Source: Sabellastarte sp. h YS-2021 (lineage: Eukaryota; Annelida; Polychaeta; Sabellida; Sabellidae). From it: a DNA stretch of 64,000 nucleotides. Under the pieces are notes generated by a model. That model was not told where the DNA came from. It worked only from the letters and a program-made list of their open reading frames with translations, and made no database searches. The translations under genes were made by a program, and so were the position numbers. The stretch is from positions 63,645,603 to 63,709,602 of the forward strand of contig OZ024929.1 of assembly GCA_964017235.1 (NCBI GenBank), written 5' to 3'. Below, in pieces: positions 826 through 39,832 of this stretch. The number at the start of each line of letters is the position of its first letter. Within the stretch, counting starts at the first letter, position 1.

Positions 826-1139
826 CTGAAAAATACAAACACATGTCAAGAAACACTTCAGGTACTTAGAGCTGTGAAGAAGTAACTTTTTTCTCGCTAC
901 ATAAAAAGATTTAACATATCTTGTCAACACCATTCAGTTACAGCTACATTGGTAATAGTTATTCAAAATATTCAAAACCAACATCTGCATACCAAGGTAA
1001 GTGAGACAGTGAGAATGTACATTATGCTGGAAATGGACTGCAAATGAGCAGTATTTACAAAAGACAAGCTGGCTTCATGTTAGGACAGGCCTGCAAGTGA
1101 TAAGGACAAGCCTGGAAGGGTTATGCAGGTGTTCCAATG

Positions 1140-1690
1140 GAGCCGACAGGCCGGTAACTATGCATCTTTGGAGAGTCGGGACCAATGTTTACATGGTTGG
1201 TTAGGGTCAGTTGTAAGTTACTGGCCTGTCGGGGAGAGTCGGTGAAATATCAAACATGTTTGATATTTCTATGACCATTGCCGACCCTTGTATTTGACCC
1301 TAATTTCAGCCCCCTAGCAACAGGCCTGTTGGTTAACTTAACAGCCTGTTGATTACACTTCCCGGCTTGTCGGTTAATCAAACAGGCCTGTCTGTAACAA
1401 GTATCTGGCTTGTCCCAAATATGGACTTCCACACTGTAAGTGATGACTCACCGACCGTGCGGGAAGTGTTACAGTACAGTCGGTAACTTTAGCTGGCCTG
1501 TCTGTAAGTGTTCCTGACAGGCCTGTAAAGTTTCAAGGCTGGTCGGTAACTTTAACTGACTGGGTCCTAGAGTCAGGAAAATTTGTAACCGACAGGCCTG
1601 AAACTGCAACAGACAAGCCGTAAACAATAACCGACAGGCCTGTAACACTAACAGACAAGCTGGGAACTGTAACCAACAGGCCGGCAATAT
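1140..1690. repeat. Subterminal short-repeat array of Harbinger A
   Basis: More than a dozen degenerate copies of a ~12-bp motif (GACAGGCCTGTAAC, or ACAGACAAGCC, and reverse complements) in both orientations. The same motifs fill the other end of A (5560-5860) and both ends of copy D (34980-35260 and 39380-39940). Clustered subterminal motifs in both orientations are usual binding arrays for transposase or accessory DNA-binding proteins; that role is inferred here. Confidence 0.7.
1244..1269. promoter_or_regulatory. 26-bp perfect palindrome near the MADF-side end of Harbinger A
   Basis: The core ATATCAAACATGTTTGATAT is extended by GAA/TTC on each side to a perfect 26-bp palindrome centred about 132 bp from the element end. 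An identical palindrome lies at the same distance in copy D, and a 32-bp version in copy C. A role as operator, replication or transposase site is inferred. Confidence 0.7.
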
Positions 1691-1729
1691 TTTTGCGTCT
1701 TACAGCCTGTTGGTTTCAAAATCTGTGGG

Positions 1730-1737
1730 TATAAAAA
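1730..1737 (+). promoter_or_regulatory. TATA box upstream of the MADF gene in Harbinger A
   Basis: TATAAAAA in a GGGTATAAAAAGG context, about 420 bp upstream of the MADF reading frame and just inside the subterminal repeats. The corresponding site in copy D has decayed. Confidence 0.5.
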
Positions 1738-2150
1738 GGTGAGTCGGTAGACAATCTGTGTATATTTGGGCTTTGACTTGTCGAGAAACAACTTGGTGTG
1801 CAGCTTTGATTTTAGGTTTTTTATTTTTTGGAAATTAGCTTAAGTACTGAGCTAGGCTGGACTGGTTGGGAGTGAAATCTGTTCTGTGAGGTTTCACTTT
1901 TATTTTAAGTTTTTGTTTTTTAAAACAAGCTGTACAATTGATTGATTGATTAGCATGCCAAGGGGCAGAAGGAGAAAGATTGAAGTACCAACTTGAGACA
2001 CTCAACCACAGTTTGAGTTAGGAGACACAGCAGAGGATATAAAGAGAAGGAGGAGGGAGAGAGAGGAGAGGGGTGAGAGAGAGAGGATTGAACAGGAGGA
2101 GAGGGATGAGAGAGAGGAGGGGAGAGAGCCAGGAAAGAGGAGAGAAGAGA

Positions 2151-3587
2151 ATGTGAACTGATACGGATACTGATGTAGAATCAACTCAATCCAGACAGAA
2201 GAAGGGCCATATGAAGTACATTTTCCTGAGTGATTCAGACGAAGAAGCCATTGTGGAGTTTGTTAAACAGCATGAGGAACTTTATGACAAGACCAACGAC
2301 AGTTTCAAAAACAAGCAGAAGAATGAAAGACTTTGGCAGCAGATAGCATCTACCATAAACGTGCCCATGAAGACTGTGAAGAAGTGGTTCGAGACTCAAC
2401 ATACCAGATATGGCAAGCTCACTCAGACGAGGTCAGGATAAGCTGCTGAGAAGAGCACAGAACGACAGACCTGGCTGAAGGACAGTTTCAGTTTTCTACG
2501 AGGTCACATCAGAAGGAAGGGAGTTTCCAAGTCTTCTGCATTCAAGTCACCCCAGAGACCTTCTGCAGCTGCAGCCTCAGCTTCAGTTCCAGATACATCC
2601 AGGGACACAGAGTCTGAGATGGAAATCAGCATTGCATCAGATGTTACTCATCAGCCTTCGAGCACCAGTCCCAAGCGACGACTGCCTCCAGTCGCAACTA
2701 CCACCACTTCTGCAAATCAAATCTTAGATCAGTTCCAGCAGATGAGGTTGATGATTTCCACATTTCTGGGTCCACGTCAGGACCCCACTCCAAGTCCTAG
2801 ACAGTCGTTCTGCAACTATCTCCACTCTGAGATTGAAAACCTGAAAGAAGGGACTTTTTAACCTTCAGGAATGAGACAGTGAAGCTTCTCAGTGAAATAC
2901 AGTACAAGGGTGAAGAAAGCAAGAGACAGGTCCACCAAAAGTAAAAGGTCACCACATTTCAACTTCCAGAAGCATCACAGGCCACAGCAGGACGTGAATA
3001 CATACTCACCATAAACTCAAACTCAACCAGTCTCCATTCCAGTTGTGCAGCCTACACAGACAGCCACAGGAGAGCCTGTTACAGTGATTGCCAAAGTACA
3101 GCAACCATCAAGGCCTTCATCAGCGTCAGCACAGCCAACTTCTTACGTAGTTGTGGATGACCAACAGCCTGGGACTTCCAGACAGATGATTTTCAACCCA
3201 CCTTCAGTTGCACCTTCACCACAGGAGGAAAGTCAGCACAATACTTCTGTATTATCCAGTCTCTTTGGAGCTATTACCAGTGTACTTCAGTACCAGCAGA
3301 TGGACACACCACAGCCATTTTCACCCTCTCAACTTCAACTTCAACCAGCACCATCACCAGTGCCATCTTCCACTCATCATGAACAGCCAAGACCTCCCAG
3401 CCAGTCCAGCCAGGAGAGTCAGCCCAAATCAGCCTGCACAAGTCGCACCAACCAGGCCCTTTTAAGGGCCACCCGAATCTTCCAAAAACAATTAACAAAC
3501 TACATGTCTGCCCAAAAACATAAAAAGCACACTGCCCAACACTTACACCTCCCCACAGTACACAAAAAAAGTTGTGTGAATGAATGA
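2151..3587 (+). pseudogene. MADF-domain accessory protein of Harbinger A, disabled
   Basis: The reading frame beginning around 2151 encodes a MADF (Myb/SANT-like, Adf-1 type) DNA-binding domain at 2235-2440, with AIVEFVKQHEELYDKTND near its start and VKKWFETQHTRYGKL near its end. In PIF/Harbinger elements such a second protein helps the transposase reach the nucleus and the transposon ends (family knowledge). Breaks: TGA at 2154-2156 where copy D has CGA, TAA at 2439-2441 where D has CAA, and a one-base loss near 2850 that ends the frame at 2861. The Pro/Gln/Ser-rich tail resumes at 3045-3587. This frame runs through the histone-like stem-loop at 3455-3470, and another frame stops at TAA inside that loop, so the true C-terminus is uncertain. 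Confidence 0.85.
3455..3470 (+). terminator. Histone-type 3' stem-loop at the MADF gene 3' end (Harbinger A)
   Basis: GGCCCT-TTTA-AGGGCC is a perfect 6-bp stem with a 4-base loop followed by ACCC, matching the form of the metazoan replication-dependent histone mRNA stem-loop. A downstream box CCAAAAAC begins 12 nt after the stem. Equivalent hairpins occur at the other five gene 3' ends in the three Harbinger copies. Confidence 0.7.
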
Positions 3588-3589
3588 GT

Positions 3590-4262
3590 GAATGTTACAC
3601 AAATATTAATAAAGTTCCACCACAAAACGGAGAAAAAAATAAAAAGTCCTCTAAATAAAAAATAATCCCCCTAAGACATTAAAGTAAAACCACCCACACC
3701 CCCCAACAAAACTCTATTTTAAAAAACACACTCCCCCCAAAAATCAAGATCCAGACTCAAACCGACGTCCCTCCCTCCCTCCCAAAACCCAACTTGAAAG
3801 AAAATGCCACATGCACACTCACAGACAAATAAACATGAGGCCTAACAAAATACTCAAACATATGAGTCGCAATGGACTAACAAAGTGAATAAAAAAATAT
3901 TAAACTGGACTGCAAATCTGTATAATTTTGTCTTACAAATTTCTTACAAAATACTTTTTTTTTTAATTCTTGGCAGAAAATATTTTCAGGTATTTATTTG
4001 AAAACTTTTTCTTTCATATTAATTTTTCATATTATTTTTTCTAAGAATAAAACCAGGTCATGTTAGGGTGGTATGTAAACTTTGTAAATCGAGGACCTGG
4101 GTTTTAATCTGTAAGCGATGGATTTTTTTTGTGAACTGATTTTGGGATGGATTTGTGTTTGTGATGGGGAATGGTTTTGGTGAAATTGATCTTATACAAA
4201 AGAGTTAGGAAATCGGGGTTATTTTTGAGGCAACACTTTGCTAAATAAAAGTTCTTGGATTA
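3590..4262. other. Spacer between the convergent genes of Harbinger A
   Basis: No gene. Strand-biased A/C-rich sequence (CCCT runs near 3768-3782) gives way to T-rich sequence after 3950. It holds a single copy of the ~40-bp unit (near 3735-3770) that is expanded to about six copies in copy D. Confidence 0.6.
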
Positions 4263-4269
4263 TTTGGGT

Positions 4270-4285
4270 AGTCCTGAAAAGAACT
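4270..4285 (-). terminator. Histone-type 3' stem-loop after the transposase (Harbinger A)
   Basis: Read on the minus strand: AGTTCT-TTTC-AGGACT, a 6-bp stem with one T-G pair, then ACCC and a CCAAGAAC box. It starts about 33 nt after the transposase stop codon, the usual distance for histone genes. Confidence 0.7.
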
Positions 4286-4318
4286 GATATATGACAGCAT
4301 GTTCTCCCCTCAGTCTTC

Positions 4319-5368
4319 TTAAACTCTGTCCCCCTGCCCAGCCAGTGCCCCCACATGATTGAAGTAGTTAACACAATGTCTCTCACAACTTTTGGCCTCT
4401 GCTCCATGGTGGTCAACAGCACCCTGAATCGCTTGACAAGTATACAAGAAATGAGTTCTCGAGCACCCTCCTCCCCTGGATATCCTGTAGTTGGATATTC
4501 TCTCTTATCTGGTCAGTTGGCGTCTACTGTAAGGCTTGACCAGCCAAGGCATCAGGGCAAAGGCGCCAGCCCCCAGCAAAAAGTAGTGTAGATCTGGCCC
4601 CCCAGGTCCAAGTGGTTCAGGTGGTGGTAGTCCCAAGGTTCCGTTTTCAATTCTTCTTTTCAGTTTGCTGCGGTTGAAAATCGGTGCATCAGATGATTAC
4701 CCACTGACCCCCGCATTGACCCACAGAAACTTGTACTCTGCATCAACTAAAGCCAAAAGTACCAGGGAGAAGTAGCCCTTGTAGTTGAAATATTCACTGC
4801 CAGACCTCTTGGGCTTCTTGATAGCAATGTGTTTTCCATCTAATGCACCGACTGCATGGGGGACATTCCATATGTTTCTAAATCTTTCTTCAATTTCCTT
4901 CCACTTTTCAGGATCAGTGGGACAAACCAGATACTCTTGTTGAAATTCTTTTAAAATGGCTTTGCAGACTTGGGGGACAAATTTGCAGATGGTCAATCTT
5001 CCAACCCTCCAGTGGTATTGCAGTGATGTGTAGCTGTGGATAAGTGTCTCAAAGTAACTGCCAGTTTCAGCCCAACTTCCAGTGGCTTCCTAAAGTTGGC
5101 AATTGACTTCCTGGGATGGGGGGGTGATCCTTTCTTCAATCAAATAAAGAAATGCTGGCTCCATCCTGGTGAAATTTCTGTAGCCTGGTATGTCACTAGT
5201 GATTAGCTCGTCCAAGAGTGTTCTGTAGCAACCTCTGTCCTCTCTCTGCAATATCCAGGGCAGGACCCATGGATTCTGTGGCTTCCTTCTCCTTCTGGGT
5301 GGTGGGGGTGATGGTGATGCTGGCTGGGCAGGTGCTGGGTTCTGCTGTCTTCTGTGTGTGGAAATCAC
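4319..5368 (-). pseudogene. PIF/Harbinger DDE_4 transposase of copy A, disabled
   Basis: The N-terminal piece (5368-5090) has a Pro/Arg-rich start and the conserved PWVLPWIL-type and YRNFTRMEPAFLYLIEER segments. The central piece (4996-4697) carries the HTH-like part and the first catalytic Asp in GALDGKHIAIKKPK. It then ends early (frameshift near 4697). The VVENSFGIL-type region with the catalytic Glu is present further left. Compared with copy D, sequence between RDIVLT and YFNHVGALAG is deleted. Homologous to HARBI1-type DDE_Tnp_4 nucleases, which cut and paste at TTA/TAA sites. At least three breaks, so inactive. Confidence 0.85.
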
Positions 5369-5492
5369 AACATATAAAATAAATTCAACTCAATAAAAAC
5401 AAAAGGACCCTCAAGTGATCTATCAATTGCTCTTGATGTGTTCCTGTCATCTTTGAAGTGTGAAATGAATGGCACATCACAGAGGTGCGGGG

Positions 5493-5500
5493 TTTATATA
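5493..5500 (-). promoter_or_regulatory. TATA box upstream of the transposase (Harbinger A)
   Basis: TATATAAA followed by CCCC on the minus strand, about 130 bp upstream of the transposase frame. It is conserved at the matching position in copy D (35324-35331), and copy C has a similar TATATATA. Confidence 0.55.
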
Positions 5501-5867
5501 GTGTGATATGGATCATGATTCTGGATCCCGACTATAGATACCGACCCACAAAAACAATCAGTCCTGTCGGGAAGGGTCGGGAACATATTTCCGGCTTGTC
5601 TGTTTGTCTTTACGGCTTGTCTGTTTGTGATCCAGCTTGTCTGTTAGGGGTTTAGGGCTTGTCGTAGTACTTCTACGACTGGCCATGCAAAAAAGGTCCC
5701 CGACCCTACGTCTTGTCAGGATGGCCATTACGGCCTGTCAGTAAGTGTACTGTCCTGTCGGGGATTTCATAACCACGCGCTTTTTCTCATGACTCCATGA
5801 CTTTTGCAACCGATCCTAGGGTCGTAGGGTCGGTTACAGGGCCGGCTCTAGTGGAACACCTGCATTA

Positions 5868-6066
5868 CAGATAAGCCTGGAAGTGTAACCGACAGGCCTG
5901 TTGCTAGGTGCATGAATTTAGGGTTTGTTACAAGGATTGGCAATGGTCGTAGAAATATCAAACAGGCCCGACAGGCCGCAAAGATACTACCGACCTTGTA
6001 AACATTGGTCCCGACTCTCCAAAAATACCTAGTTACCGACCGGTCGGCTCCAGTGGAACGGCCCCA
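5868..6066 (+). mobile_element. Harbinger remnant B, terminal segment disrupted by copy A
   Basis: This stretch matches the MADF-side end of copy D, including the half palindrome (GAAATATCAAACA) and an end reading GGCTCCAGTGGAAC...CCCA followed by TAA. About 50 bp of similar sequence lies left of copy A (1075-1123). Copy A therefore sits in the subterminal region of an older relative whose other end I cannot find. Confidence 0.7.
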
Positions 6067-6758
6067 TAATGCACAACATCCAATTAGTTAGGCATAAATT
6101 GCCAAGACATTAGACATATTCCAAGTTGCACCCAGGGAGGCAATCCAGTGTTCGGTAGTTAGAAACTAAGGTGGAAACGATTCCTGAAATAAGTAGATTT
6201 TTAGTTGACTTTTGAAACATGAGAGATTTGGAGCACTGCATATAACATGTGGAAGATCATTCCATAATTTTGGGGCATCATATGAGAAACTGTTGTTGAA
6301 GTGGGCCTTTTATTTATGGATAGAAGAACAATCATGAGGAACCTGAAAGAACATATTTTGGGGATTTGAGCATCTTGTGTTTACGGAATTTTTATACAAG
6401 GAGGGATATAGTGCACAATACTTAGGCTGGCCAGTAGTGAGATACTTATACACAAGAACTAGGGTTTTAAAGATAATTCATTGTCTGATAGGTAGCCAAT
6501 GAAGTGACTTCAAGCTGGATGTGATGTGAGTGAACTTAGAAAGCACCAGCGACAAACTGTGCAAGAGATTTTTGGACATATTGGAGCCTGGTAGTATTAC
6601 GGGATGACAAACTACGAAATAGAGAATCACAATAATCCAAACGACTGCTGACCAGAGCATTTGCAATCACCACTGATGTATCAACAGAAAGAAACCTCCT
6701 GATACGATGAAGGTCCCTCCGGCTCATAAAACAAGATTTGATGACAGAATTTACGTGA

Positions 6759-11167: not shown

Positions 11168-11499
11168 TCTGAAAAGGAAATAGGTAGCACTAAACCATTA
11201 AAGGTTTTGTGTAATGAATATTTGAGTGTAACTCAAGAAGAACCTGATTTCATTGCAACAAAATGATACTTCTTTGGCCTGATGTTTCACAAATGTAAGG
11301 TGCAGCAAGAAGTTAACCAGTGAAAAAGGAATATATTGGTAAGGATGGTTTTGCTCATGAGATGTTTCAAATTTACAGTAGTTATGTGGGTGTTCCACCA
11401 CATGACTAAGCTTTCCAATTAAGGGTTTTTTGTAGTTGGTTTCAAAAATTTCTTAGTCCCAGGCGTTCGGTATGGATCGGTAGTTGTCGGTTGGGGCCG

Positions 11500-11531
11500 T
11501 GAGAAATATCAAACATGTTTGATATTTCTCA
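11500..11531. promoter_or_regulatory. 32-bp perfect palindrome near the MADF-side end of Harbinger C
   Basis: Same core (ATATCAAACATGTTTGATAT) as in A and D, extended to TGAGAA...TTCTCA. It is centred about 130 bp from the left end. The sequence around it is unrelated to A and D, so the palindrome itself is conserved. Confidence 0.75.
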
Positions 11532-12004
11532 TGATCCAAACCGATTCTTATTTCCCGCCGTGAACAAAATGTCCAGTCTCAGGCTTCCTAATGCCTCCTC
11601 AGACCCAAATGTACACAGTCCTATGTTGTCTCAGGCCTCCTGCGACCCTTAGTCCCAGGCGTCCCTAGCTTAGTCCCAGGAAGCCTGTTTGTCAGTCCCC
11701 GAACCTAAAAGGTCTTTGAAGTTTCATGTGTGTAAAAAGGAATCAGTTTCATTAGTCCCAGGAAGCCTCAGACCGTCTCAGGTGTCCTGGGACTAAGAAA
11801 TCTGGGTCTGGGACTAAGCCCCGACTAAGAGAAGCCGATCCAAACCGGCCTCATCAGGCTGCCTGGGACCACACAAATTTAGTCTGCGACGGCCTGAGGA
11901 CGCCCCAGGAGGCCTGGGGCATTTTACTTGAGTTAGGGCAAATTTAACAGTTAGGAGACACATTTCAGTTTTTTTACTTTTTTTTTGTGATATTCACTGG
12001 AGTT

Positions 12005-13351
12005 ATGAGGAAAGAGAAAGGAGGAAAGAGAGGAAAGAAGAAGATGGAGGAGAGGCAAAAGGAGAGGGAGAAGGAAGGTGGAGAGTTGGAGGAGAGGACA
12101 GAGGAAAGGACAGAGGAGAGGACAGAGGAGGGTACAGAAGAGAGAGAAGAGAGGATAGAGGATAGAGAGGAAGATTTACAAGTTACTGAGGAAGCTTGCG
12201 AAGAAAATGAGAGGTGTGAGGAAGAATCAGAGTGCCACTCAGCAGGCAAGAGACCCAGGGTTTGTGCTACATTCACTGACAGCCCAAAAAATGCCATTGT
12301 TGAGTTTGTGAAGGAGCACCCAGAGCTGTACGACAAGGAGCATGGACGTTTCCACGACAGACATAGGAAGGAGGCTCTCTGGGCAGAAATCTCTGCAGAA
12401 CTGAAGCTCCAGCCCTTTGATGTCAGAAGGTGGTTTGAGTCACAGAGAACTCGTTATGGCAAGTTCTCCAAGCTACAGTCTGGCCAAGCCCCAAGGGAGA
12501 TGACCAAGAGACAGTCCTGGGTCTACCAACAGATGGGTTTCCTTAAGACCCACATCAGATGCAAGGGGGCCAACAGAAGCTCTGGGTTCGAGGCCAGTCC
12601 CAACACCAGCAGGCATGAAGAATCGCATGGATCTACTACTCATACAGAACATCTTGCGTCCAGTGTCCCGAGGGAGAGGAGAAGTCAACAAATTCTTACA
12701 TCTACACCAGTTTCTACAGATTCCAAGATACTCGAGCACTTTGACCAGATGAGGACACTGATCTCAGGTTTCCTGCAGCAGAAGTCAGACAGGCAGCCCT
12801 TCTTTGACTACGTGGCATCAGAGCCTGAAAAGATGACCCAAGAGGAGTTTGAGGACCTCAAGGGCAGCATTTTTAGAGGCATTGAAGAAGTAAAGAACAC
12901 TCATAGACGTCAAGTACTGCCCAAGAGATCAGCCACTATTACCAAAGAGTCACAGAGGGTCGGGATACTGCCAACAACCACTCAACAGGCGTCTAGTTCC
13001 ACCCAGGCAGCAGCAGGCAGCAGTTCCAGCAGTTACGTCTACTACACACCCAGCCCCATTGGCTTTGGAAACCCTCCATCAGAGCTCACAGTACAGGACG
13101 AGGGCAGCAGACACAACTTAAGTGGAATACTAAGCCAGATACCAGATCTAACAACAACACAGATCATTGAGCAGCACCGCCTCAACAGCAGCAGCCTCCT
13201 CAGTAGCCAACCAGTCCTCGTGGGTCTCGTACCCCCCATAGGCCCTTTTCAGGGCTGCCCAAATCTTCCAAAAACAATTATTAAGCTGAAAGTTGTTCAA
13301 ATTCCCCTCCCAAAACATGACAGTTCAGTACAAATACTTATCACAAAATAA
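12005..13351 (+). CDS. MADF-domain accessory protein of Harbinger C
   Basis: 448-residue ORF from ATG 12005. Residues ~1-70 are a Glu/Arg/Lys-rich low-complexity region with tandem EERTEERTEE. A MADF DNA-binding domain follows at about residues 90-165 (AIVEFVKEHPELYDKEHGRF ... DVRRWFESQRTRYGKFSKL). Then a linker (IRCKGANRSSGF), an acidic helix around DYVASEPEKMTQEEFEDL, and a Ser/Gln/Pro-rich tail. In Harbinger elements this protein type cooperates with the transposase for nuclear import and end binding (family knowledge). Convergent with the transposase. The last ~35 codons read through the stem-loop at 13241-13256; an alternative frame has TAG just before it, so the real stop may be earlier or reached after a small frameshift. 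Confidence 0.85.
   Translation: MRKEKGGKRGKKKMEERQKEREKEGGELEERTEERTEERTEEGTEEREERIEDREEDLQVTEEACEENERCEEESECHSAGKRPRVCATFTDSPKNAIVEFVKEHPELYDKEHGRFHDRHRKEALWAEISAELKLQPFDVRRWFESQRTRYGKFSKLQSGQAPREMTKRQSWVYQQMGFLKTHIRCKGANRSSGFEASPNTSRHEESHGSTTHTEHLASSVPRERRSQQILTSTPVSTDSKILEHFDQMRTLISGFLQQKSDRQPFFDYVASEPEKMTQEEFEDLKGSIFRGIEEVKNTHRRQVLPKRSATITKESQRVGILPTTTQQASSSTQAAAGSSSSSYVYYTPSPIGFGNPPSELTVQDEGSRHNLSGILSQIPDLTTTQIIEQHRLNSSSLLSSQPVLVGLVPPIGPFQGCPNLPKTIIKLKVVQIPLPKHDSSVQILITK
13241..13256 (+). terminator. Histone-type 3' stem-loop of the MADF gene (Harbinger C)
   Basis: GGCCCT-TTTC-AGGGCT: 6-bp stem (basal G-T pair) with a TTTC loop, exactly the metazoan histone loop form. GCCC follows, and a CCAAAAAC box begins 12 nt after the stem. 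Confidence 0.75.
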
Positions 13352-13571
13352 AAAAAAGCCCAACACCACCCCAAACATGAAACAAATAACCCATGGTAAT
13401 ACACATAACAACAGAAGGCCACATAGAAAAAAATAGATAAATAAACTCCCAATATGGCCAATAATCTGCCCATTTGTAGTTTAAAATCCATGGGATTGCT
13501 TTAAATCTGTAATAAAAAAGTCCAACACTGACACCATCCCTAGAGTTAAAAGATATTATGTTATCACATAG

Positions 13572-14040
13572 CCACCAACCAACAAACAGACAAACCCAAT
13601 AGCAAACATAATCCCCCAGCCAACGAACTGACAAACGAATTTGCAAACATAACTCCCCACAACCAACAGACAGATAAACCATACTGTAAATAGAACCATT
13701 TGGGTGGTTATATTTTGTAAAGTTCCTTGAAGTGGAATAAAAAAATTTAATTTTGAGATTTGCAATAAAGAAAAAACTTTCACTTTCAGTTATTTTTCCA
13801 GAATAAAAACCAAATGTAAGTGAAATTAGGGTGTCGATTTCAAAATATATGCAATATTTATTCCATTTACCAACTTATGTTTGGCATTGGGTTTGTCTGT
13901 TTGTCTGTTTTTTTTGTGGGAATTATGTTTGGCATTGGGTTTGTCTGTTTTTTGTGGGAATTATGTTGGGCATTGGGTTTGTCTGTTATTTTTGGGAATT
14001 ATGTTGGGCATTGGGTTTTTCTGTTGGTTGGGTGACTTAT
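13572..14040. repeat. Inverted arrays of ~45-bp tandem repeats between the convergent genes (Harbinger C)
   Basis: The left arm (13572-13680) holds ~2.5 copies containing AACAGACAAACCCAATAGC. The right arm (13875-14035) holds ~4 copies of the reverse complement (GCATTGGGTTTGTCTGTTTT...GGGAATTATGTTTG). The arms can pair into a long imperfect hairpin about 200 bp apart, between the two gene 3' ends. Confidence 0.8.
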
Positions 14041-14104
14041 GTTTGGAAATGGTTGGGTTATTTGGAACAAGCACAGCTGATTAATTGTTTTTGGAATATT
14101 TGGT

Positions 14105-14143
14105 AGTCCTGAAAGGGACTGGTTATTAGTCCTGAAAAGGACT
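14105..14143 (-). terminator. Tandem histone-type stem-loops after the transposase (Harbinger C)
   Basis: Read on the minus strand, AGTCCT-TTTC-AGGACT (14143-14128, perfect) lies 17 nt after the stop codon. A second hairpin AGTCCC-TTTC-AGGACT (14120-14105) follows after 7 nt, with ACCA after it and a CCAAAAAC box beginning 11 nt further on. Confidence 0.75.
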
Positions 14144-14160
14144 GCTTACTGCAGTGGCAG

Positions 14161-15379
14161 TTATATTCTGCCATCTTGCCAAGCCACTGCTCCCTCATTA
14201 TTGAAGTAGTCCTTGAGGTAATCCCTCAGTCTTTTGGCTTCTCTGGCAGGGTTTCTGTCGTGACCACCATAAGCAGGACCACCAATCAAGCGACCATCAC
14301 CAGGCTCATCATCATCATCATCACCACCAGGCTGTTGACCACCTTGTTGACCTTGATACTGGCTTCTCAGTATGTCGTGCAGAACCACACAGGTCATGAC
14401 CACATCCCTGACTGTTTCTGGGGGTAGTTCAATAGTGGTCATCATGACTCTAAATCTTGAAACCAGGATGCCAAAAGCATTCTCAACAACTCTCCTGCCC
14501 CTTGATATTCTGTAGTTGGCAATCCTTTCCTCTCTGGTTAACATCCTTCTGCCATAGGGTTTCATCAGCCAGGTCTTCAGGGCAAATGCATCATCTGCCA
14601 GGATGAAGTAGGGGACATCTCGACCAGCCTGGGTTATAGGTGCTGGGTCAGGGAAGCCTATGCTGCTATCATCAATCTTCCTCTTCAGGTGACAGGTATT
14701 AAATATCTGGGCATCTGAGCAAGATCCAGCTGTACCGACATCCACCCATCTGTACTGTCCATCAACCAAGGCCAACAATACTATTGAAAAGAATCCCTTA
14801 TAGTTGTGGTACAGGGCTCCAGAGTTCTTGGGTTTCTTCAGGGCCACATGCTTGCCATCAAGGGATCCCAGGGCATGTGGAACGTTCCACCTGATCCTGA
14901 ATTCTGTTTCCAGTTCTTTCCACTCATCTGGAGTAGTAGGACATCTGAGATACTCTCTGGTGAACTCATCCTGGATGGCCCTGCAGACCTCTGGTAGAAA
15001 CTTGGAAATGGTGGATCTGCCAACCCTGAACTGACAGGATAATGATGTGTATGACTCTCCAGTGGCCAGATATCTGATGGTGAGGGCTAACTTTTCCCCA
15101 ACACTGACTGGAGCTCTGTAGTTGGTGGCCTGCCTGGCTAGACGTGGTTCCAGTATGGTCTTTATCATTTCAAAGAATTCTGGGGTCATCCTCATGAAAT
15201 TGGTGAATCCTGGCCAGCCATAATGTTGTGGTAGGCCCCCTCTCCTCTCTCTGTAGTAACCATGGCCTGACCCACATGTTGTGCCTTCTTCTAGGTCTCT
15301 GTCTGGCTGGTGGTGGTGGTGGTGGTGGATGTGCTGCTTGTGGTGGTTGCTGTGGTCGACGTAGAAATAGCAAATACAT
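14161..15379 (-). pseudogene. PIF/Harbinger DDE_4 transposase of copy C, one N-terminal frameshifted zone
   Basis: An uninterrupted 344-codon frame (15195-14161) encodes the HTH region (SLSCQFRVGRSTISKFLPEV) and the DDE catalytic core. Catalytic Asp in GSLDGKHVALKKPK, second Asp in FILADDAFALKTWL, and Glu in RRVVENAFGILVSRF. The normal length is ~390-400 residues. The N-terminal ~60 codons (15379-15200, Pro-rich then MWVRPWLLQREERG) are in another frame, and sequence near 15215-15240 contains a small indel/deletion relative to the other copies. The enzyme is a HARBI1-type cut-and-paste nuclease. Whether an internal start could still yield a functional core is unclear; I treat it as probably inactivated. 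Confidence 0.85.
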
Positions 15380-15497
15380 CAGTATATGTAACTGAACAAA
15401 AACTAAAAAAGCCCTAAATTGTTGCTGAAGCTGTCATCCATTCAAAGGTGGCATCTTGCTGTGTTCCTAGACAAGTAATGATAATTACATCCCAGAA

Positions 15498-15508
15498 TTT
15501 ATATATAT
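15498..15508 (-). promoter_or_regulatory. TATA-like element upstream of the transposase (Harbinger C)
   Basis: TATATATATAAA on the minus strand, ~120 bp upstream of the transposase frame and in the same place as the TATA boxes of A and D. Confidence 0.5.
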
Positions 15509-15913
15509 ACCCAGAAAATCCAGTTATTTTGCAAAACAAGAATCGGCCATCGTGGTCTGGGGAACACTGAGGAGGCCTCAGGATGCCTGAGGAAGCCGGG
15601 ACTTAGTCGGGGGTTAGTCGGGGCTTAGTCCCAGGAGGCCTGAGGCGTAGTGGGACCCAGTCAGTATGTCTATGACAAGATCGTGGTTCAAACCGACCAG
15701 AAAATGGCTTAATCGGTTCTTAGTCGCAGAACAGTTGGGGACTGTGTGGGGCCTCCTGGGGCCTCTTCAGGCTTCCTGAGGCCGATCTGAACTTAATCCC
15801 AGGCTTTAGTAATGATTCAGTATTCCCGCCCATTTTACCTTTTTTTCACCAACTGTCCACGATTAAGGGTTGCGGACAGGATTGGGACTTAGTCCTTTGG
15901 TGGAACAGAGGCA

Positions 15914-16420
15914 TAAGGTTTGGGCTAGAATTTGCTCAAGTAGTTTTGCCTGGAAAGCTTTGCTTGCAAGTTTTGAAGTTGGGACATTGTGGATTGTTTT
16001 CTGGTCATCAAGATGTAACCAAGACTTTAGATAGGGTTACATCCAATTTTTATTTGCCTGGTGTTCATGGTGATGTGACAAGGTTTTGTGATGTTTGTCA
16101 GAAAACAGTTGCAAAAGGAAAAATTAGTAAGGTTCCACTTGAAAAGATGCCTGTTATTGATAGTCCATTTGAAAGAGTAGCAGTTGACTTGATAGGTCCT
16201 ATTCACCATGCTACCAGTGTAGGATTTTCGTGTCAAAAACATCCTCGACCATCGGTCATATACAAACTGAAACATTTAATGATGTAGTAATAAAGCCTGC
16301 TTTGAAACCACTGCAACATAAACAGTTGCTTAATATGTTAGAGCAATACTCTAAGATACTTACTGATATACCAAAGGTCATTAGCTTGTTGCAACATGCC
16401 ATTTCTATGACCACAATAGG
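15914..16420 (+). pseudogene. Integrase N-terminus and pre-RT linker of the gypsy-type element (right of Harbinger C)
   Basis: GHCGLFSGHQDVTKTLDRV and FCDVCQKTVAKG form the H2C2 zinc-binding domain of a retroviral-type integrase. Then comes PLEKMPVIDSPFERVAVDL, the start of the catalytic core, which is deleted shortly after (~16215). The next stretch (16258-16410: DVVIKPALKPLQHKQLLNML, LTDIPKV) resembles the linker that precedes RT. Protease, then integrase, then pre-RT linker is the order of Gmr1-like elements, in which integrase precedes RT, rather than the standard Ty3/gypsy order; this assignment is inference. Terminated by an R-family insertion at ~16424. Confidence 0.6.
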
Positions 16421-16423
16421 TCC

Positions 16424-16900
16424 TCAGTGGCCTAGTGGTTAGCAAGTTTGGAATCTAATCATAGGCTGTCGGATCTCTGGGTTCGAGTCCCACATGTGGC
16501 AATGCTGAGAACCTGTCCTATTATGACCCTTATATGCCTTATTGCACACTGTGCTGTGACATCACTAACATGAGTGGCGTCATAGGCCTTTGAAGCATAA
16601 CCACAAGTGTTACTTCTCATCAGCACAAGACTGGTCCCCGTCATAGTTCCCCCTACAAAAAAATGGGGCAAAATAGTAAAAGAGTAAAAAAGGAATTCCA
16701 TGGAACAGTAAAAAGGCCTTATATGCAATGATTGCTTTATTTCGGGATATAAACTGTTAAAAGGTGCTTTACACAATTCTCAATGACTTGCTAATAAAAA
16801 AATTAAATATCCAACCCTTAAACTGTTTCAAAATAATAAAACAGTAAACAGAAAACAGAAATAGTGCTTTACCGTTTTGTGTTTCTATAAATTGGTAAAT
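16424..16900 (+). mobile_element. R-family retroposon with tRNA-like head
   Basis: A head with A box TGGCCTAGTGG and B box GGTTCGAGTCC (16428-16490) is followed by GACATCACTAACATGAGTGG and AGGCCTTTGAAG. The latter sequences recur in the repeats at ~40000-40420, 46860-47190 and 48490-48970. A tRNA-derived composite SINE is the simplest reading. The end near 16900 is approximate. Confidence 0.6.
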
Positions 16901-22502: not shown

Positions 22503-24242
22503 ATGTCTTCCCAGGATAAAATTAAAAAAGGACAGAGGAAAAGTGCTTTTTGTGGCCATTTTATGGCAGAATGGGATGAGCACCATTATTGTCCTAAGTG
22601 TAGGGATGACTTGAAGGGTGACGATCCCTGTGCTAATTCTCAGGATTGTGTGATTTGTTCAACCTTTTCTGAGGATCAGAAAAAGAAAATTAGGAATAGA
22701 AACAGATACAAGAGCAAGAAGGATCAGAATTCATCTGTTTCAGTGGACAATGGCGGTAAAGAAGGGAGTATTGATGATTCTTTGTTGGACGAGGATGAAG
22801 TTTCTTTTACTGTCTTCCCAAGTTCCTGTTTCTCAGAAAAATAGATCTTTGGAAGATAAATTAGACAGATTTTTCAGTGAGTTTGCAGTTTTATCACAAA
22901 GAATTCAGACTTTGGAACAGAAAGACTCTGAAACTACCGGCAGTCATGTTAGCTCCGGTAGGGACAGTGTACAAGTTGCTAAGCAACCGGTGGTGAGATC
23001 TAAATCTCAACCGGTTTCTTCTGCGAGTTCTTCCCTCCTGAAAAGATCTGCTACCATCACCAGGTCTGAATTTGATCAGCAGTCTACATCCGGTCAGGGG
23101 TCGGATGAAACCGGTGGTGTGGCATCATGTAGAAAGAGATCTTATTCTCAGTCTTCTGATGAACTGGATCCGGATCCTGAGGGTGATTTTTGCTCTAGGG
23201 AAGAAGATTCTCCAGGTTATACTGAAACTTTGGAAACCATTAAAAAGTGGCTTGATTTAGAGGTCAAGAATGTGGAATGTTTTGTACCTCCATCAGTTTT
23301 TTCAAGCAGAGATCAGGTCAAGAAGTCTGTGCAACAGTCTATGGCTTTGCCTCCTGCTCAACCTTTAGTAGAACTTTGGAAATATAAGGAGTTCTCGGCT
23401 TTGGGCAGCAATGATGTTGATGATGCTGACCCTCATCACCCTCCTTTATCCAGGGGTCATTTTCTTAATTTTCCTAAACCTCAAATGAAGTTTTACCAGG
23501 TTTCTCCACAGTCCTTTTCTTTGGCTGCTCCCAGGATTCAGGATGCGTTTAAGAACATTGTAACTCCTCCATATCAGCCACCTTCTTCACTTTCAGTGCC
23601 TTTGAAACAATATTTGACTTGGGAGACTGTTTCTAGGGAAAATATTCAAATTCTAAACCATGTCTTTTGGTTTAAGGGAGCCATGGAAAAAGCTACTAAT
23701 GAGATGTTTACTGAATTGGACAAAACGAAGGATTCTTCTGATCAAGAAGACATTCAACAGAGTATGAATTTTTTGCAAAATTGTTTGCAATTGCAGTCAA
23801 CAACTATGGGATGTTTAGGCAAAGCTTTGGATGATGTTTTAGATACCTCCATGACTTTTGCTTCAAATTTATTACTGAACAGAAGGGATAATTTTTTGAA
23901 GCTCTGTCACAGGGATGTGACCGATAAAGATGTGGCTAGATTGAGAAATGCTTCTCTTACAAAAAAAGAACTGTTTAATTCAAAGGTTTTAGCTGAAGTC
24001 GAACAAAACTTCATTCAGTGGAGATAAACCGGGAGCCGGCTTTTAAGAAACACAGAGGTGAATCCTATGGTTCCCGTTCTTTTGCGGATTCAAAGAAAGA
24101 ACAGCCACAAAACAGGTACCAGAATGCAGCGTTTCAAAATTTTCGACCTCAAGGCAAGCAAAATGATCAAAACAAAAGACAATCTGGCTCCTACAACTCC
24201 AACAGAGGCTCTGCCCGAGGGGGTAGGGGCAGGAGGAAGTGA
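22503..24242 (+). pseudogene. DIRS Gag, two frameshifts
   Basis: From ATG 22503, MSSQDKIKKGQRKSAFCGHF begins a Cys-rich N-terminus (HYCPKCRDDLKGDDPC, CVICSTFSEDQ) typical of DIRS Gag. It leaves frame at ~22810. The main body continues in the 22750-24027 frame (LEDKLDRFFSEFAVLSQRIQ coiled coil, then a capsid-like region ending FIQWR). A third frame (to 24242) gives a basic Gly/Arg/Asn/Gln tail (NRYQNAAFQNFRPQGKQ, ARGGRGRRK) likely to bind nucleic acid. The second shift near 24010-24025 could be programmed or a mutation. Confidence 0.8.
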
Positions 24243-26010
24243 CTACATGAAGGTAAGCCCAAAATATCCTGGTTCCCGTTTACAAGCTTATTGGAAAGTG
24301 TGGGAAAGTTTCAAGGTGCATCCGAGAGTAGTTCTTGTTTTAAAACAAGGTTATTGTCTTCCATTCAAAGAAAAACCACCTCTGACCCGGTTTCCGACTA
24401 TCAAAAGCAGTTATTCAACTCCAGTAAAGCAAAAAGCCTTGCTGGAAGCGGTTCAACAAATGGTTCAAAAAAGGGCAGTGGTTCCAGTTCAAAACAAGAA
24501 CTCTCTCGGATTCTACAGTCGTTTGTTTCTGGTTCCAAAACCAGAAAACAAATGGCGACCAGTAATAGATCTCAGTGTGGTAAATACATTCTTACATGTT
24601 CCCACTTTCAAAATGGAAACTGCAGAAGTCATTCGGGCTTCTCTTCAAGCAGGCGAGTGGGTGGCTTCCATAGATCTCACCGACGCTTATTTTCATGTAC
24701 CCATACACCAAAAGTTTCAAAAGTATCTGCGCTTTCATGTACAGGGTCAGGCATATCAGTTCAGAGCCCTACCCTTCGGGATCGCGACTGCTCCACTGGA
24801 GTTCACTCGAGTGGTGAAGGAGGTCAAGTTCATAGCTCTTTCACAAGGGGTTCGAATCCATCAGTATTTGGACGATTGGCTGGTGAGGGCCAAAGATCCG
24901 GATTCTTGTGCTCGGGATGTTCAAAAATTGATCAGTCTAGTCGAACAGTTGGGTTGGATTGTCAATTTGAAAAAATCAGAACTCAATCCAACTCAGGATC
25001 TCGAGTTTCTGGGTTATCGGTTCAACCTTCAAGAAGGTTTGGTCTACCCAAATCAAAAGAAATTGGACAAGCTCAAAATTTTGGCAGTTTCCATTTTGCA
25101 AGGTCACAACACTACTCCAAGGAAGCTCATGTCATTAATTGGGGTCATGGCTTCCATGGAGAAAACAGTTCCTTTGGGTCGGATCCATATGAGACCGTTT
25201 CAGTGGTTTCTGAAGACCAACTGGCAGTTTCCCCAGTCATTGGACAAGGTGGTCCCAATTTCTCAGTTGATAAAGGACCATCTGGCTTGGTGGATGGATC
25301 CTCAGAACTTACTCAAGGGTTCGAATCTGCATCAGAAAGAACACAATATGCTGATGTTCACAGATGCATCAGAGAAGGGTTGGGGGGCTCAATTGAACAA
25401 TTGTACTGTAAGTGGGTTCTGGCAACCATCAGAAAAAGACTTGCATATCAATATTTTGGAACTGAAAGCTGTTTTTCTAGCTCTGAAACATTTTCAAGGA
25501 GAATTAAGGCAAAAAATAGTGTTGGTTTCTTCAGACAACTCAACTGTGGTCTCCTATATCAACAAAGAAGGAGGCATTCACTCCTTCGAAATGTGTGCTT
25601 TGATGTGGAGAATTCTGGCTTGGTCCAATGCCAGGGAGATCCAGATCAGGGCCAGACATATTCCAGGGAATCTCAATGTGATAGCAGATTCCCTGTCCAG
25701 GAGGGACAAGGCCATTCAGACAGAGTGGTCTTTGCATCCTCAGGTCTTTCAAGAAATTTGCCAAGTTTGGCACAAGCCAATGGTGGATCTGTTTGCCACC
25801 AGCTTGAATGCCAAGCTTCCAACCTACGTATCTCCTGTCCCAGACGACAAGGCCTGGCAGATAGATGCATTGAACATCTCTTGGGAGGCTCTGGACGCCT
25901 ATGCTTTTTGTCCAGTAGCCATCCTTCCTCAGTTAGTTCAGAAAATGATCACCTACAGGTGCAGGGTCATTGTGATAGCACCAGGGTGGCCGGGGATGCC
26001 TTGGTTTTGA
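24058..26010 (+). CDS. DIRS reverse transcriptase / RNase H
   Basis: The frame is open from 24058; an ATG at 24247 (MKVSPKYPGSRLQAYWKVWE) is the more likely start. RT motifs: FYSRLFLVPKPENKWRPVID, WVASIDLTDAYFHVPI (catalytic Asp), FRALPFGIATAP and HQYLDDWLV (YLDD at ~24864). RNase H follows: MLMFTDASEKGWGAQL (Asp), NILELKAVFLALKHF (Glu), VSSDNSTVVSYINK (Asp) and RHIPGNLNVIADSLSR. It copies genomic RNA to cDNA. All catalytic residues are present over 588 codons (from 24247) without interruption, so this is a young copy. Confidence 0.93.
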   Translation: MNPMVPVLLRIQRKNSHKTGTRMQRFKIFDLKASKMIKTKDNLAPTTPTEALPEGVGAGGSDYMKVSPKYPGSRLQAYWKVWESFKVHPRVVLVLKQGYCLPFKEKPPLTRFPTIKSSYSTPVKQKALLEAVQQMVQKRAVVPVQNKNSLGFYSRLFLVPKPENKWRPVIDLSVVNTFLHVPTFKMETAEVIRASLQAGEWVASIDLTDAYFHVPIHQKFQKYLRFHVQGQAYQFRALPFGIATAPLEFTRVVKEVKFIALSQGVRIHQYLDDWLVRAKDPDSCARDVQKLISLVEQLGWIVNLKKSELNPTQDLEFLGYRFNLQEGLVYPNQKKLDKLKILAVSILQGHNTTPRKLMSLIGVMASMEKTVPLGRIHMRPFQWFLKTNWQFPQSLDKVVPISQLIKDHLAWWMDPQNLLKGSNLHQKEHNMLMFTDASEKGWGAQLNNCTVSGFWQPSEKDLHINILELKAVFLALKHFQGELRQKIVLVSSDNSTVVSYINKEGGIHSFEMCALMWRILAWSNAREIQIRARHIPGNLNVIADSLSRRDKAIQTEWSLHPQVFQEICQVWHKPMVDLFATSLNAKLPTYVSPVPDDKAWQIDALNISWEALDAYAFCPVAILPQLVQKMITYRCRVIVIAPGWPGMPWF

Positions 26011-27200
26011 GATCTGGTGGAATTGTCAGTCAAGATTCCACTGAGGCTTCCTCAAATGCACAATCTCCTGAAGCAACCCTTCAGTCTCAGATTCCACAAG
26101 AATCTGGAGTATCTGAACCTCCATGCTTGGTATCTGGACTCTTACAAGAAGGTCAAGGAGGATTCTCTGTTGATGTGGCAGATAGAATTAAGGCACCTCA
26201 GAGACAATCCTCAAGGCGAGTATATGATTCAAGGTGGGCCATATTTCAAAAGTGGGCCCAGGAGAATCAGGTGGATGTCACAAAACCAACTATTCCTCAG
26301 ATAGCTGATTTTCTGAATCATCTTTTCACTGATAGGAACTTGAAACCTAGAACTATTGCTGGTTATAGAACCTCAGTAGCAGATGGGTTAGGCTCTGCAG
26401 GTCAAATGGTTTCTCAAAGTTTAGATTTGAATCGTTTGATTGCTAGTTTTCATAGGGACAGACCTTCAGCAAATAGGTCTATTCCTAACTGGGACTTGTC
26501 CTTGGTCCTACTTGCCCTCGCTCGGGCTCCTTTTGAACCTTTGGGTAAAGCTGATCTTAAGATTTTGACTTTTAAGACAGTTTTTCTGTTGGCTCTAGCA
26601 TCTGGTAAAAGGCGTAGTGAGATTCATGCTTGGACTTTTGACTCCTTCAGTAGGAAAAGGGACTGGTCTCAGGTGACTTTTTCGCCTTCAACTGCTTTCA
26701 TAGCTAAAAATCAGTTGGCTTCTGAGGGTCCTTTGGCTATTCAACCGGTAGTGATCCCTGCTTTGAAACCTACATTGGATCCTTCCTTGATTCAGGATAA
26801 GTCTCTTTGTCCAGTGAGAGCTTTGAGATATTATCTTGACAAAACAAAAGATCTCAGGAAAGGCAAGAAACTTCTTTTTGTAGCTATTAAGGAGGGCTAC
26901 TCAAAAGATATCTCTAAGGCTACTATATCTTCTTGGATCAAACAGTCTATCATTTTGGCCTACCAAAAGTCTGATCAGGAGGTTCAAAATGTTTCCCAGG
27001 TCAAGGCACATGAGGTTAGAGCTTTGGCTGCCTCTTTGGCTTTTAAGGGAGGAGTTGCTCTAGATGAGATAATGGCTTCTTGCTTTTGGAGAAGCCATTC
27101 AACTTTCACAAATTTTTATCTGAAAGATTTGTGCTGGCATAATGGTGATGTAATGAAAATTGGGCCTGTGGTGGCGGCTCAACATGTTGTAAATTGTTAA
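24291..27200 (+). CDS. DIRS tyrosine recombinase (in a 969-codon ORF overlapping RT/RH)
   Basis: The recombinase proper occupies ~26200-27140: a SAM-like N-domain (RWAIFQKWAQENQVDVTKPT ... TIAGYRTSVADGLG) and a catalytic domain with Arg in SGKRRSEIHAW, H-x-x-R in KAHEVRALAASLAF and the nucleophilic Tyr in FTNFYLKDL. It resolves and integrates the circular cDNA by strand exchange. The first ~570 codons overlap the RT/RH gene in a different frame and are Ser/Gly-rich with no recognisable domain. Overlap of these two ORFs is known for DIRS elements, but such a long stop-free overlap is notable; translation probably starts far inside it. Confidence 0.9.
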   Translation: MESVGKFQGASESSSCFKTRLLSSIQRKTTSDPVSDYQKQLFNSSKAKSLAGSGSTNGSKKGSGSSSKQELSRILQSFVSGSKTRKQMATSNRSQCGKYILTCSHFQNGNCRSHSGFSSSRRVGGFHRSHRRLFSCTHTPKVSKVSALSCTGSGISVQSPTLRDRDCSTGVHSSGEGGQVHSSFTRGSNPSVFGRLAGEGQRSGFLCSGCSKIDQSSRTVGLDCQFEKIRTQSNSGSRVSGLSVQPSRRFGLPKSKEIGQAQNFGSFHFARSQHYSKEAHVINWGHGFHGENSSFGSDPYETVSVVSEDQLAVSPVIGQGGPNFSVDKGPSGLVDGSSELTQGFESASERTQYADVHRCIREGLGGSIEQLYCKWVLATIRKRLAYQYFGTESCFSSSETFSRRIKAKNSVGFFRQLNCGLLYQQRRRHSLLRNVCFDVENSGLVQCQGDPDQGQTYSRESQCDSRFPVQEGQGHSDRVVFASSGLSRNLPSLAQANGGSVCHQLECQASNLRISCPRRQGLADRCIEHLLGGSGRLCFLSSSHPSSVSSENDHLQVQGHCDSTRVAGDALVLRSGGIVSQDSTEASSNAQSPEATLQSQIPQESGVSEPPCLVSGLLQEGQGGFSVDVADRIKAPQRQSSRRVYDSRWAIFQKWAQENQVDVTKPTIPQIADFLNHLFTDRNLKPRTIAGYRTSVADGLGSAGQMVSQSLDLNRLIASFHRDRPSANRSIPNWDLSLVLLALARAPFEPLGKADLKILTFKTVFLLALASGKRRSEIHAWTFDSFSRKRDWSQVTFSPSTAFIAKNQLASEGPLAIQPVVIPALKPTLDPSLIQDKSLCPVRALRYYLDKTKDLRKGKKLLFVAIKEGYSKDISKATISSWIKQSIILAYQKSDQEVQNVSQVKAHEVRALAASLAFKGGVALDEIMASCFWRSHSTFTNFYLKDLCWHNGDVMKIGPVVAAQHVVNC

Positions 27201-34900: not shown

Positions 34901-35323
34901 ATGAGTGATTAAATGAGGGAACTGTCATTTACTGTTTTTCTAGCTTTATGCAGTGTTTCCACTGGAACCGATCCTGTAACCCACCCTACGACCCTAGGGT
35001 CGGTTGCAAAAGTTGTAGGGTCGTAGAAAAAAGGCGCAAAAATGATGAGTCGGTTATGAAATCCCCGACAGGAGGTAAAGTTACAGACAGGTCATAATGA
35101 CCATCCCGACAAGACGTAGGGTCGGGAACCTTTTTTGCATGGCCAGTCGTAGAACTTCTACGACAAGGCCCGAACCCCTAACAGACAAGCCGGATCACAA
35201 ACAGACAAGCCATAAAGACAAACAGACAAGCCGGGAACATGTTCCCAACCCTTCACGACAGGACTGATTGTTTTTGTGGGTCGGTATCTAGAGTCGGGAT
35301 CCAGAATCAATATCCATATACAC

Positions 35324-35331
35324 TATATAAA
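35324..35331 (+). promoter_or_regulatory. TATA box upstream of the transposase (Harbinger D)
   Basis: TATATAAA followed by CCCC, about 115 bp before the transposase frame; same context as in copy A. Confidence 0.6.
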
Positions 35332-35438
35332 CCCCCTCCCCTGTGATGTGCCATTCATGTCACACTTCAAAGATGACAGGAACACACCAAGAGCAACTGA
35401 TAGATCACTGTCCTGTTTTTTATTGAGTTAAATTTATT

Positions 35439-36670: not shown

Positions 36671-36700
36671 AAAGACTGAGGGGACATGCTGTCATATATC

Positions 36701-36716
36701 AGTCCTTTTCAGGACT
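36701..36716 (+). terminator. Histone-type 3' stem-loop after the transposase (Harbinger D)
   Basis: AGTCCT-TTTC-AGGACT, a perfect 6-bp stem, TTTC loop, followed by ACCC, 30 nt after the stop codon. CCAAGAAC begins 12 nt after the stem, resembling the CAAGAAAGA histone downstream element. Confidence 0.8.
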
Positions 36717-37159
36717 ACCCAAATAATCCAAGAACTTTATTTAGCAAAGTGTCGCCTCCCAAAAATAACCCCAAGTTTCTAACAATATAATTCAAATTCA
36801 ATTTCACCAAAAATATTCCCCATCACAAATACCAATCCATCCCACACTCAGTTGAAAAAAGTAAATTATATCACTTACAGGTTCAAACCCAGGTCCTCAC
36901 TAAACAAAGTTGCCATTCAACCCCAACATGACCTGGCTTTATTCTCGGAAAAAAATAATTTACAAAGTGGTATTAAGAAAAAAGTTTCAAATAAATACCT
37001 GGAAATATTTCCTGCAAAGAATTCACAAGAATTAAAAAATGATAGGAAATTTGCAAAACAAAATTATACAAGTTTTGCAGTCACAGTTTTAAATAATTTT
37101 TTTTTCAGTTTATCAATTCATTGCCACTCACATTTTTGTAAATTTTGTTAGGCCTCACG

Positions 37160-37400
37160 TTTGTTGGGGTTTTGGGAGACAGGGACATGGGTTTGAGTCT
37201 GGATCTTGGTTTTTGAGGGACGTGGGTTTGAGTCCACATCTTGGTTTATGAGTGATGTGGGTTTGAGTCTACATCTTGGTTTTTGGGGGATGTGGGTTTG
37301 AGTCTACAACTGTGTTTTTGGGGGTTGTGGGTTTGAGTCCACATCTTTATTTGGGAGGGGGGGGGGTTGGGGTTGTGGGTTTAAGTCCACATCTTTTGTT
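37160..37400. repeat. ~40-bp minisatellite between the genes of Harbinger D
   Basis: About six tandem units of GTGGGTTTGAGTCCACATCT plus TGGTTTTTGGGGGAT. Copy A has a single unit at the matching place. Each unit contains a B-box-like GGTTTGAGTCC. Confidence 0.85.
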
Positions 37401-37545
37401 TTTTAAATTTTGTTTTTGTTTGGGTGGTGGTGGTGGTTTTACTTTGATTTCTTAGGGGATTATTTTTTTAAGGGGAATTTTTTTTTTGTTTTTTGTTTTT
37501 GTTTTGTGGTGGAAGTTTATTTATACTTGTTTAACATTCACATAT

Positions 37546-39806: not shown

Positions 39807-39832
39807 GAAATATCAAACATGTTTGATATTTC
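39807..39832. promoter_or_regulatory. 26-bp palindrome near the MADF-side end of Harbinger D
   Basis: Identical to 1244-1269 in copy A and centred 132 bp from the element end. Confidence 0.75.

Follow-up and report, generated by a model that had tools for sequence, protein, structure and literature searches.

DNA transposons of the PHIS superfamily (PIF/Harbinger, ISL2EU, NuwaI and others) encode a DDE transposase and a separate Myb/SANT-type protein, have terminal inverted repeats and measure about 4.5–5 kb (PMC4482050). Neither "untranslated" nor "polyadenyl" appears in the text of that paper, and histone-type 3' ends go unmentioned in those of its passages available to us. Such ends belong to replication-dependent histone mRNAs (Rfam family RF00032, Histone3; SLBP/U7 processing), which carry a 6-bp stem with a TTTC or TTTA loop, a conserved second pair G-C and a trailing ACC, followed 10–12 nt further on by a second box. 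For the clam Lucina pectinata, the accessible part of one study reports the hairpin in histone mRNAs, with a reservation on the 3' end of H1_B (PMC6210712), so there is nothing unusual about the pathway in a mollusc. No earlier description of histone-type 3' ends in transposons was found in the open-licence literature searched. Here we analyze a window of the genome of the annelid Sabellastarte sp. (the whole stretch of 64,000 nucleotides, contig OZ024929.1, positions 63,645,603 to 63,709,602) that contains three copies of one two-gene DNA transposon (A1, B and A3), falling into subfamilies A and B. The element shares all the listed features of PHIS transposons and, at the ends of its genes, the listed sequence features of histone mRNA ends. 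As read from its sequence, a large and recently active transposon family carries the histone hairpin and downstream signal on both of its genes, suggesting that it borrows the production of tail-less histone messages.

Histone-type signals behind both genes

The Myb/MADF and DDE transposase genes are convergent in each of the copies A1 (subfamily A; 1121–6069), B (subfamily B; 11382–15916) and A3 (subfamily A; 34946–39955, inverted relative to A1), in agreement with the original prediction of three Harbinger-type copies in two subfamilies. The seven hairpins predicted at their 3' ends were all recovered in place, in the sense orientation of the respective gene and with a TTTC or TTTA loop. Behind the Myb genes these are GGCCCT-ttta-AGGGCC in A1 (3455–3470, plus strand; 33.4 bits with RF00032; box CCAAAAAC beginning 11 nt further), GGCCCT-tttc-AGGGCT in B (13241–13256, plus; 26.8 bits; box CCAAAAACAATTA) and AGCCCT-ttta-AGGGCC in A3 (37659–37674, minus; 22.7 bits; box TTCAAAAAACAATTA). 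Read against the window, the stop codon of the Myb family is TAG at 13204–13206 in B, 34 nt before the hairpin, and TAG at 37700–37698 (minus) in A3, 23 nt before it. Behind the transposase genes we found AGTTCT-tttc-AGGACT in A1 (4270–4285, minus; 23.1 bits; box CCAAGAACTTTTATTT), AGTCCT-tttc-AGGACT in A3 (36701–36716, plus; 27.5 bits; box CCAAGAAC) and a tandem pair in B. The upstream member of the pair, AGTCCT-tttc-AGGACT (14128–14143, minus), reaches 18.7 bits when scored with a model of the other six window sites; the downstream member is AGTCCC-tttc-AGGACT (14105–14120, minus; 21.3 bits; box CCAAAAACAATTAAT). The distance from the transposase stop to the first hairpin is 17 nt in B, 30 nt in A3 and 33 nt in A1, exactly the range predicted.

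Other predicted details held in part. Fully paired 6-bp stems occur at five of the seven sites, the exceptions having one non-standard pair each (A-C at the base in 37659–37674, C-A beside the loop in 14105–14120). A trailing ACCC had been described; ACC or GCC follows six of the seven stems, and the second box begins 10–12 nt behind the same number, with neither lying directly behind 14128–14143. When matches with E-values up to 10 were admitted, six RF00032 matches (21.3–33.4 bits) were obtained, all at these sites, and no further one appeared on either strand of the 64 kb. A six-pair hairpin pattern (G2-C, T6-A, loop TTTM) occurs six times in the window, five times at these sites and once at 61707, compared with an expectation of 0.26 per random Markov-1 sequence of window length (164 sequences). 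With A/GCC required behind the hairpin, four occurrences remain in the window versus none in the 164 sequences. Chance hairpins are ruled out by these counts and by the confinement of the RF00032 matches to the named sites.

The host's own histone genes carry the same kind of signal. Its H1, H2A, H2B, H3 and H4 genes end in GGCTCT-tttc-AGAGCC followed by ACC and, a few letters on, by the box CTTCCAAAAACAATTAATAAG (H3), CTTTCAAAAACAATTATTCAG (H4), ATTCCAAAAACAATTAATAGC (H1) or CTTTCAAGAACTTTTATTT (H2A and H2B). The transposon has ATTCCAAAAACAATTAATAGC behind the Myb gene of B, ATTCCAAAAACAATTAATCAGC behind the transposase gene of B and AATCCAAGAACTTTTATTTAGC behind the transposase genes of subfamily A. 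Two kinds of downstream box, CAAAAACAATTA and CAAGAACTTTTATTT, are thus common to host histone genes and transposon at equal spacing, and CAAGAACTTTTATTT is identical over 15 letters between them. The comparison with the species' own histone 3' ends proposed in the original prediction therefore agrees in hairpin form, spacing and both boxes. The similarity comprises hairpin and box and little else, and it ends with the box. Genes of both kinds are open in one frame, and the hairpin begins 17–34 nt past the stop in the transposon and 31–41 nt past it in the host (counted on the host sequences). In contrast to histone genes, those of the transposon specify a transposase and a Myb/MADF protein (Pfam domains MADF and DDE_Tnp_4, no histone). 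Their stems are mostly GGCCCT/AGGGCC and AGTCCT/AGGACT instead of GGCTCT/AGAGCC, and many transposase genes bear two tandem hairpins. Tandem stem-loops were observed in many subfamily B transposase genes (window 14105–14143; loci L031, L036, L039, L040, L046–L048 and L074–L093), with starts 23–25 nt apart and with ACC and box behind the second only.

Conservation and genomic abundance

Hairpin and box are as conserved as the coding sequence while the flanks drift. Between subfamilies A and B, the two 25-column windows over hairpin and box at the Myb end are 0.72–0.84 identical and the others 0.16–0.64; at the transposase end the single hairpin window reaches 0.88, the next one, which contains a gap, 0.40, and windows in the 3' stretch behind the transposase 0.28–0.64. 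In subfamily B, 11 transposase 3' ends were compared, of which ten come from loci selected by the Myb hairpin at the other gene; identity amounts to 0.977 (hairpin), 0.955 (spacer), 0.925 (box) and 0.924 (coding sequence), compared with 0.755 in the 30 nt before the signal and 0.795, then 0.513, behind it. The corresponding values for 16 Myb ends, themselves chosen for their hairpin, are 0.992, 0.979, 0.926 and 0.863, with flanks of 0.773 before and 0.821 and 0.792 behind; individual 20-nt windows in the stretch behind are as high as 0.893 and 0.958.

The claim that the stems differ in sequence yet keep pairing is borne out by compensatory changes. A set of 26 hairpins, of which 14 are distinct and which includes those of the host (with two rows shifted in coordinates), has 96.3% of its cells paired, with G-C as the second pair in 13 of 13. 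In three of five measures, namely cells paired, cells changed on both sides and the covariation score, one of 500 shuffles scored as high. The hairpin is also kept in divergent family members, as predicted.

Young copies carry the signal as well. We scored 96 of 23,153 candidate transposase copies; over 436 residues all 96 are 97–100% identical to P0128, and 84 have no internal stop. The single uninterrupted frame implies that there is no intron there, as in histone genes. Among 20 of these copies sampled for their 3' flanks (211–216 nt each), 19 have the exact signal and the 20th has one stem base changed; 18 have two exact tandem hairpins, and AATAAA or ATTAAA occurs in none of the 20 flanks. 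A second sample comprised loci outside the window that were chosen for the hairpin of the other (Myb) gene. The transposase end was located in 17 of them and bears a hairpin in 16. Nine of the 17 have AGTCCTTTTCAGGACTACC, several of these with a changed box base; locus L042 differs from it by a TTTT loop and L047 has one mismatch.

Across the 1.786-Gb genome, an RF00032 search scored 75 of 382,297 first-look candidates, and all 75 exceed the curated gathering score of 34 bits (37 histone-type, 38 dispersed). One of 14 control genomes gave a match, below the cut-off. Myb/MADF or transposase sequence of several subfamilies adjoins 37 of the 38 dispersed sites, and some of the adjoining Myb proteins are only 27–32% identical to that of copy B. 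The six highest-scoring sites are transposon sites (43.0–43.6 bits), followed by the best histone site (42.9 bits). Thirty-two of the histone-type sites lie in an H1 array on C4 and five in a cluster on C2. In the array, H1 was confirmed in the first unit (L012) and the remaining units were assigned by equal signal; in the cluster, H3, H2A and H4 were confirmed in four sites and the fifth was assigned by a signal equal to that of H4.

Exact signals number 2,562 of transposase type, 1,949 of Myb type and 39 (32 + 6 + 1) of histone type; these are pattern counts over the genome, with sites not individually inspected, and the reversed patterns gave no match for any of the three types. The H1-type signals form their own array (C4:31445726–31509284; 32 signals, period mostly 1,932 bp), six further histone-type signals lie in a small core-histone cluster (C2:27.65–27.74 Mb) and one at C8:62488613. 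Among the transposase-type sites, the first 100 listed (C1, 2–62 Mb) include 54 with a facing Myb-type site within 4 kb (median distance 1,036 nt), and 54 of the 75 Myb-type sites listed in this region have a facing transposase-type partner; three pairs within 4 kb are otherwise arranged. At C1:64935297–64942630, six Myb-type signals follow one another at intervals of exactly 1,460 bp, marking a tandem array in which the Myb 3' signal is included.

The element and its neighbourhood

By its protein domains the element can be assigned to the PHIS superfamily. Copy B has a Myb/SANT-like (MADF) open frame at 11987–13351 (plus; PF10545, 1.8e-12), frame-shifted near its end and running through the stem-loop, and a DDE_Tnp_4 transposase frame at 14161–15195 (minus; PF13359, 1.5e-27), which is about 90 N-terminal residues short of its relatives. 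In A1 both the Myb/MADF gene (plus) and the transposase gene (minus) are decayed. The copies in the window end in TTATG...CATAA, as in A1, with one end of A3 reading CATTA. A 2-bp AT target duplication fits the ends of all three copies, and TWA does not; the passages of PMC4482050 at hand give AT for ISL2EU and TWA for PIF/Harbinger. The name Harbinger used in the original prediction thus holds at superfamily level, given DDE_Tnp_4 and a separate Myb/SANT-like protein, and fails for the target duplication, which is why we leave the element at the level of PHIS.

The two genes of copy B are separated by an imperfect inverted repeat (13259–13312 with 14050–14103; 13576–13657 with 13875–14034), so read-through of either gene would yield self-complementary RNA. 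Relatives of the element were not detected by tblastn in viral and prokaryote contigs. Three transposase relatives (P0188, P0203 and P0218) with 60–64% identity come from contigs of 1,363–2,515 bases, which are perhaps transcripts of other species. Elsewhere in the window, a frame at 24058–27200 encodes reverse transcriptase and RNase H (PF00078, PF13456); an overlapping frame of 969 residues has no Pfam match and resembles a tyrosine recombinase by eye, perhaps indicating a DIRS-like element. The segment at 16420–16500 looks tRNA-like by eye and is perhaps the head of a short interspersed element; ARAGORN called no tRNA or tmRNA gene in the window.

Probable processing by the host histone machinery

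The best explanation is very probably that both transposon mRNAs are made by the host machinery for histone 3' ends. In this pathway, SLBP and the U7 small nuclear ribonucleoprotein would bind the transposon RNA and CPSF73 would cleave it a few nucleotides past the stem. The mRNA would serve without a poly(A) tail and would follow histone mRNA in its synthesis and decay around S phase, a time at which replicated DNA and sister-chromatid repair would be available. The sequence itself carries the signals, matches them to host histone signals and places them after stop codons; it also shows that they are conserved, covary and occur at thousands of sites, young intact copies among them. Cleavage after the hairpin, the missing tail and the S-phase restriction are what we infer from this. 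The host encodes the SLBP RNA-binding domain (PF15247) in two pieces on C6, 10.8 kb apart (56.8 and 35.9 bits), a domain found in none of 14 control genomes. Pairing of the box with U7 small nuclear RNA (snRNA) would follow from its match to the host histone boxes and from the established pathway, as described in the part of PMC7026596 consulted.

A coding origin of the conservation, in which the hairpin would belong to the Myb open frame, has to be considered because this frame passes through the hairpin in A1, A3 and B. The frame differs from copy to copy, and the passage is due to frame-shifts in these copies. Many Myb relatives stop before the hairpin: the end pattern ...PPQQQQPPQ fits 74 (77 by a second pattern) of the 120 relatives listed among 336 found with the B Myb protein, and a KSAD-like end occurs in 57 of the 120 listed among 373 found with the A Myb tail. 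Some Myb relatives also read through and are compatible with hairpin and box, in several frames. When 360 listed relatives were reverse-translated against the hairpin-plus-box 40-mer, a test in which proteins stopping before the hairpin cannot show it, a fit of at least 34 of 40 was found in 5 of 120 for Myb B, 17 of 120 for Myb A, and 5 of 120 and 0 of 120 (best 33) listed transposases for the B and A patterns, respectively. A 51-letter two-hairpin pattern fitted at 48 or more in 4 of 120. The same block also stands behind the transposase stop, where the surrounding sequence differs, and the coding explanation is ruled out by the family stops lying before the hairpin.

The remaining alternatives have little probability. 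The hairpins might be DNA sites, either inverted repeats to which the transposase or the Myb protein binds or a cruciform that forms between the convergent genes; the element does encode both proteins, and the inverted repeat of copy B takes in the stretch behind both hairpins. However, TTTC or TTTA stands on the mRNA strand at seven of seven sites with ACC or GCC behind six, a polarity that a DNA palindrome does not have, the box matches host histone genes, and the signals lie directly past stop codons and not at the terminal repeats, which makes such a role highly improbable. Passive inheritance of a signal captured once from a histone gene and now functionless would explain why host and transposon resemble each other in hairpin and box and little else, as an old capture would leave them. 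This reading is very unlikely, since hairpin, spacer and box of transposase B are conserved at 0.93–0.98 compared with 0.51–0.80 in their neighbours, pairing is maintained in stems that vary in sequence from one gene to the other and relative to the host, and the signals persist beside Myb genes only 27–32% identical to that of copy B; capture as an origin is, moreover, compatible with present function. We give equally small weight to a role of the stem-loop other than 3' cleavage, such as SLBP binding that stabilizes or localizes a polyadenylated mRNA, or titration of SLBP. AATAAA motifs behind the Myb hairpins of the window and the excess of exact transposon-type over histone-type signals (4,511 versus 39) would fit such a role, but the box lies beyond the cleavage site and is therefore absent from mature histone mRNA, yet it has been kept together with the hairpin and agrees with the host box, and the sampled transposase flanks are free of polyadenylation motifs.

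Several observations weigh against processing of the transposon mRNAs by the histone machinery. No Rfam match in the window reached the gathering score; the RF00032 check proposed in the original prediction thus failed for every site of the three old window copies and succeeded for the 38 dispersed genome sites, six of which outscore every histone site. The covariation signal is weak for the six window sites alone (31 of 500 shuffles as high), and in the full set shuffles were as high in 102 of 500 for pairs changed on both sides (three) and in 140 of 500 for further pair types. Being recent and nearly identical to one another, the 20 young copies show recent use and not independent events. 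In the second sample, the transposase end of L001 has no hairpin, that of L043 is degenerate, and the close relatives L002–L005 combine an AGTCCT/AGGGCT stem with an altered box and lack ACC; in the genome-wide search, L057 has a hairpin without recognizable transposon genes. A U7 snRNA was not detected in the genome over the RF00066 cut-off. The best RF00066 matches are an interspersed repeat, and 12 of 14 control genomes gave matches at the same E-value; a pattern combining an Sm site with the complement of the box gave 26 matches compared with 18 in the control, and none of the six inspected was convincing. AATAAA lies 90–137 nt behind the three Myb hairpins of the window and ATTAAA 161 nt behind one transposase hairpin; the Myb motifs make back-up polyadenylation possible. 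The host H3 gene has AATAAA 39 nt behind its own hairpin.

Because the similarity to the host ends with the box, the signals may stem from an old capture of histone 3' ends or from convergence. The two box variants in one transposon point to two captures or to a pull exerted by a single U7 snRNA. With processing by the histone machinery as the preferred explanation, the family likely represents a recently multiplying class of non-histone protein-coding mRNAs on the SLBP/U7 pathway, with both genes of a DNA transposon under replication-coupled, tail-less expression. If so, a transposon with histone signals would break a rule and would indicate how mobile elements might evade control based on poly(A). 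RNA sequencing with poly(A) selection would miss its transcripts and could call an active family silent, and these transcripts could compete with histone mRNA for SLBP and U7, given more than 4,500 exact signals versus 39. The thousands of variants would form a natural set for mapping the requirements of SLBP and U7, and transposition in this annelid would have an S-phase switch that is testable at once.

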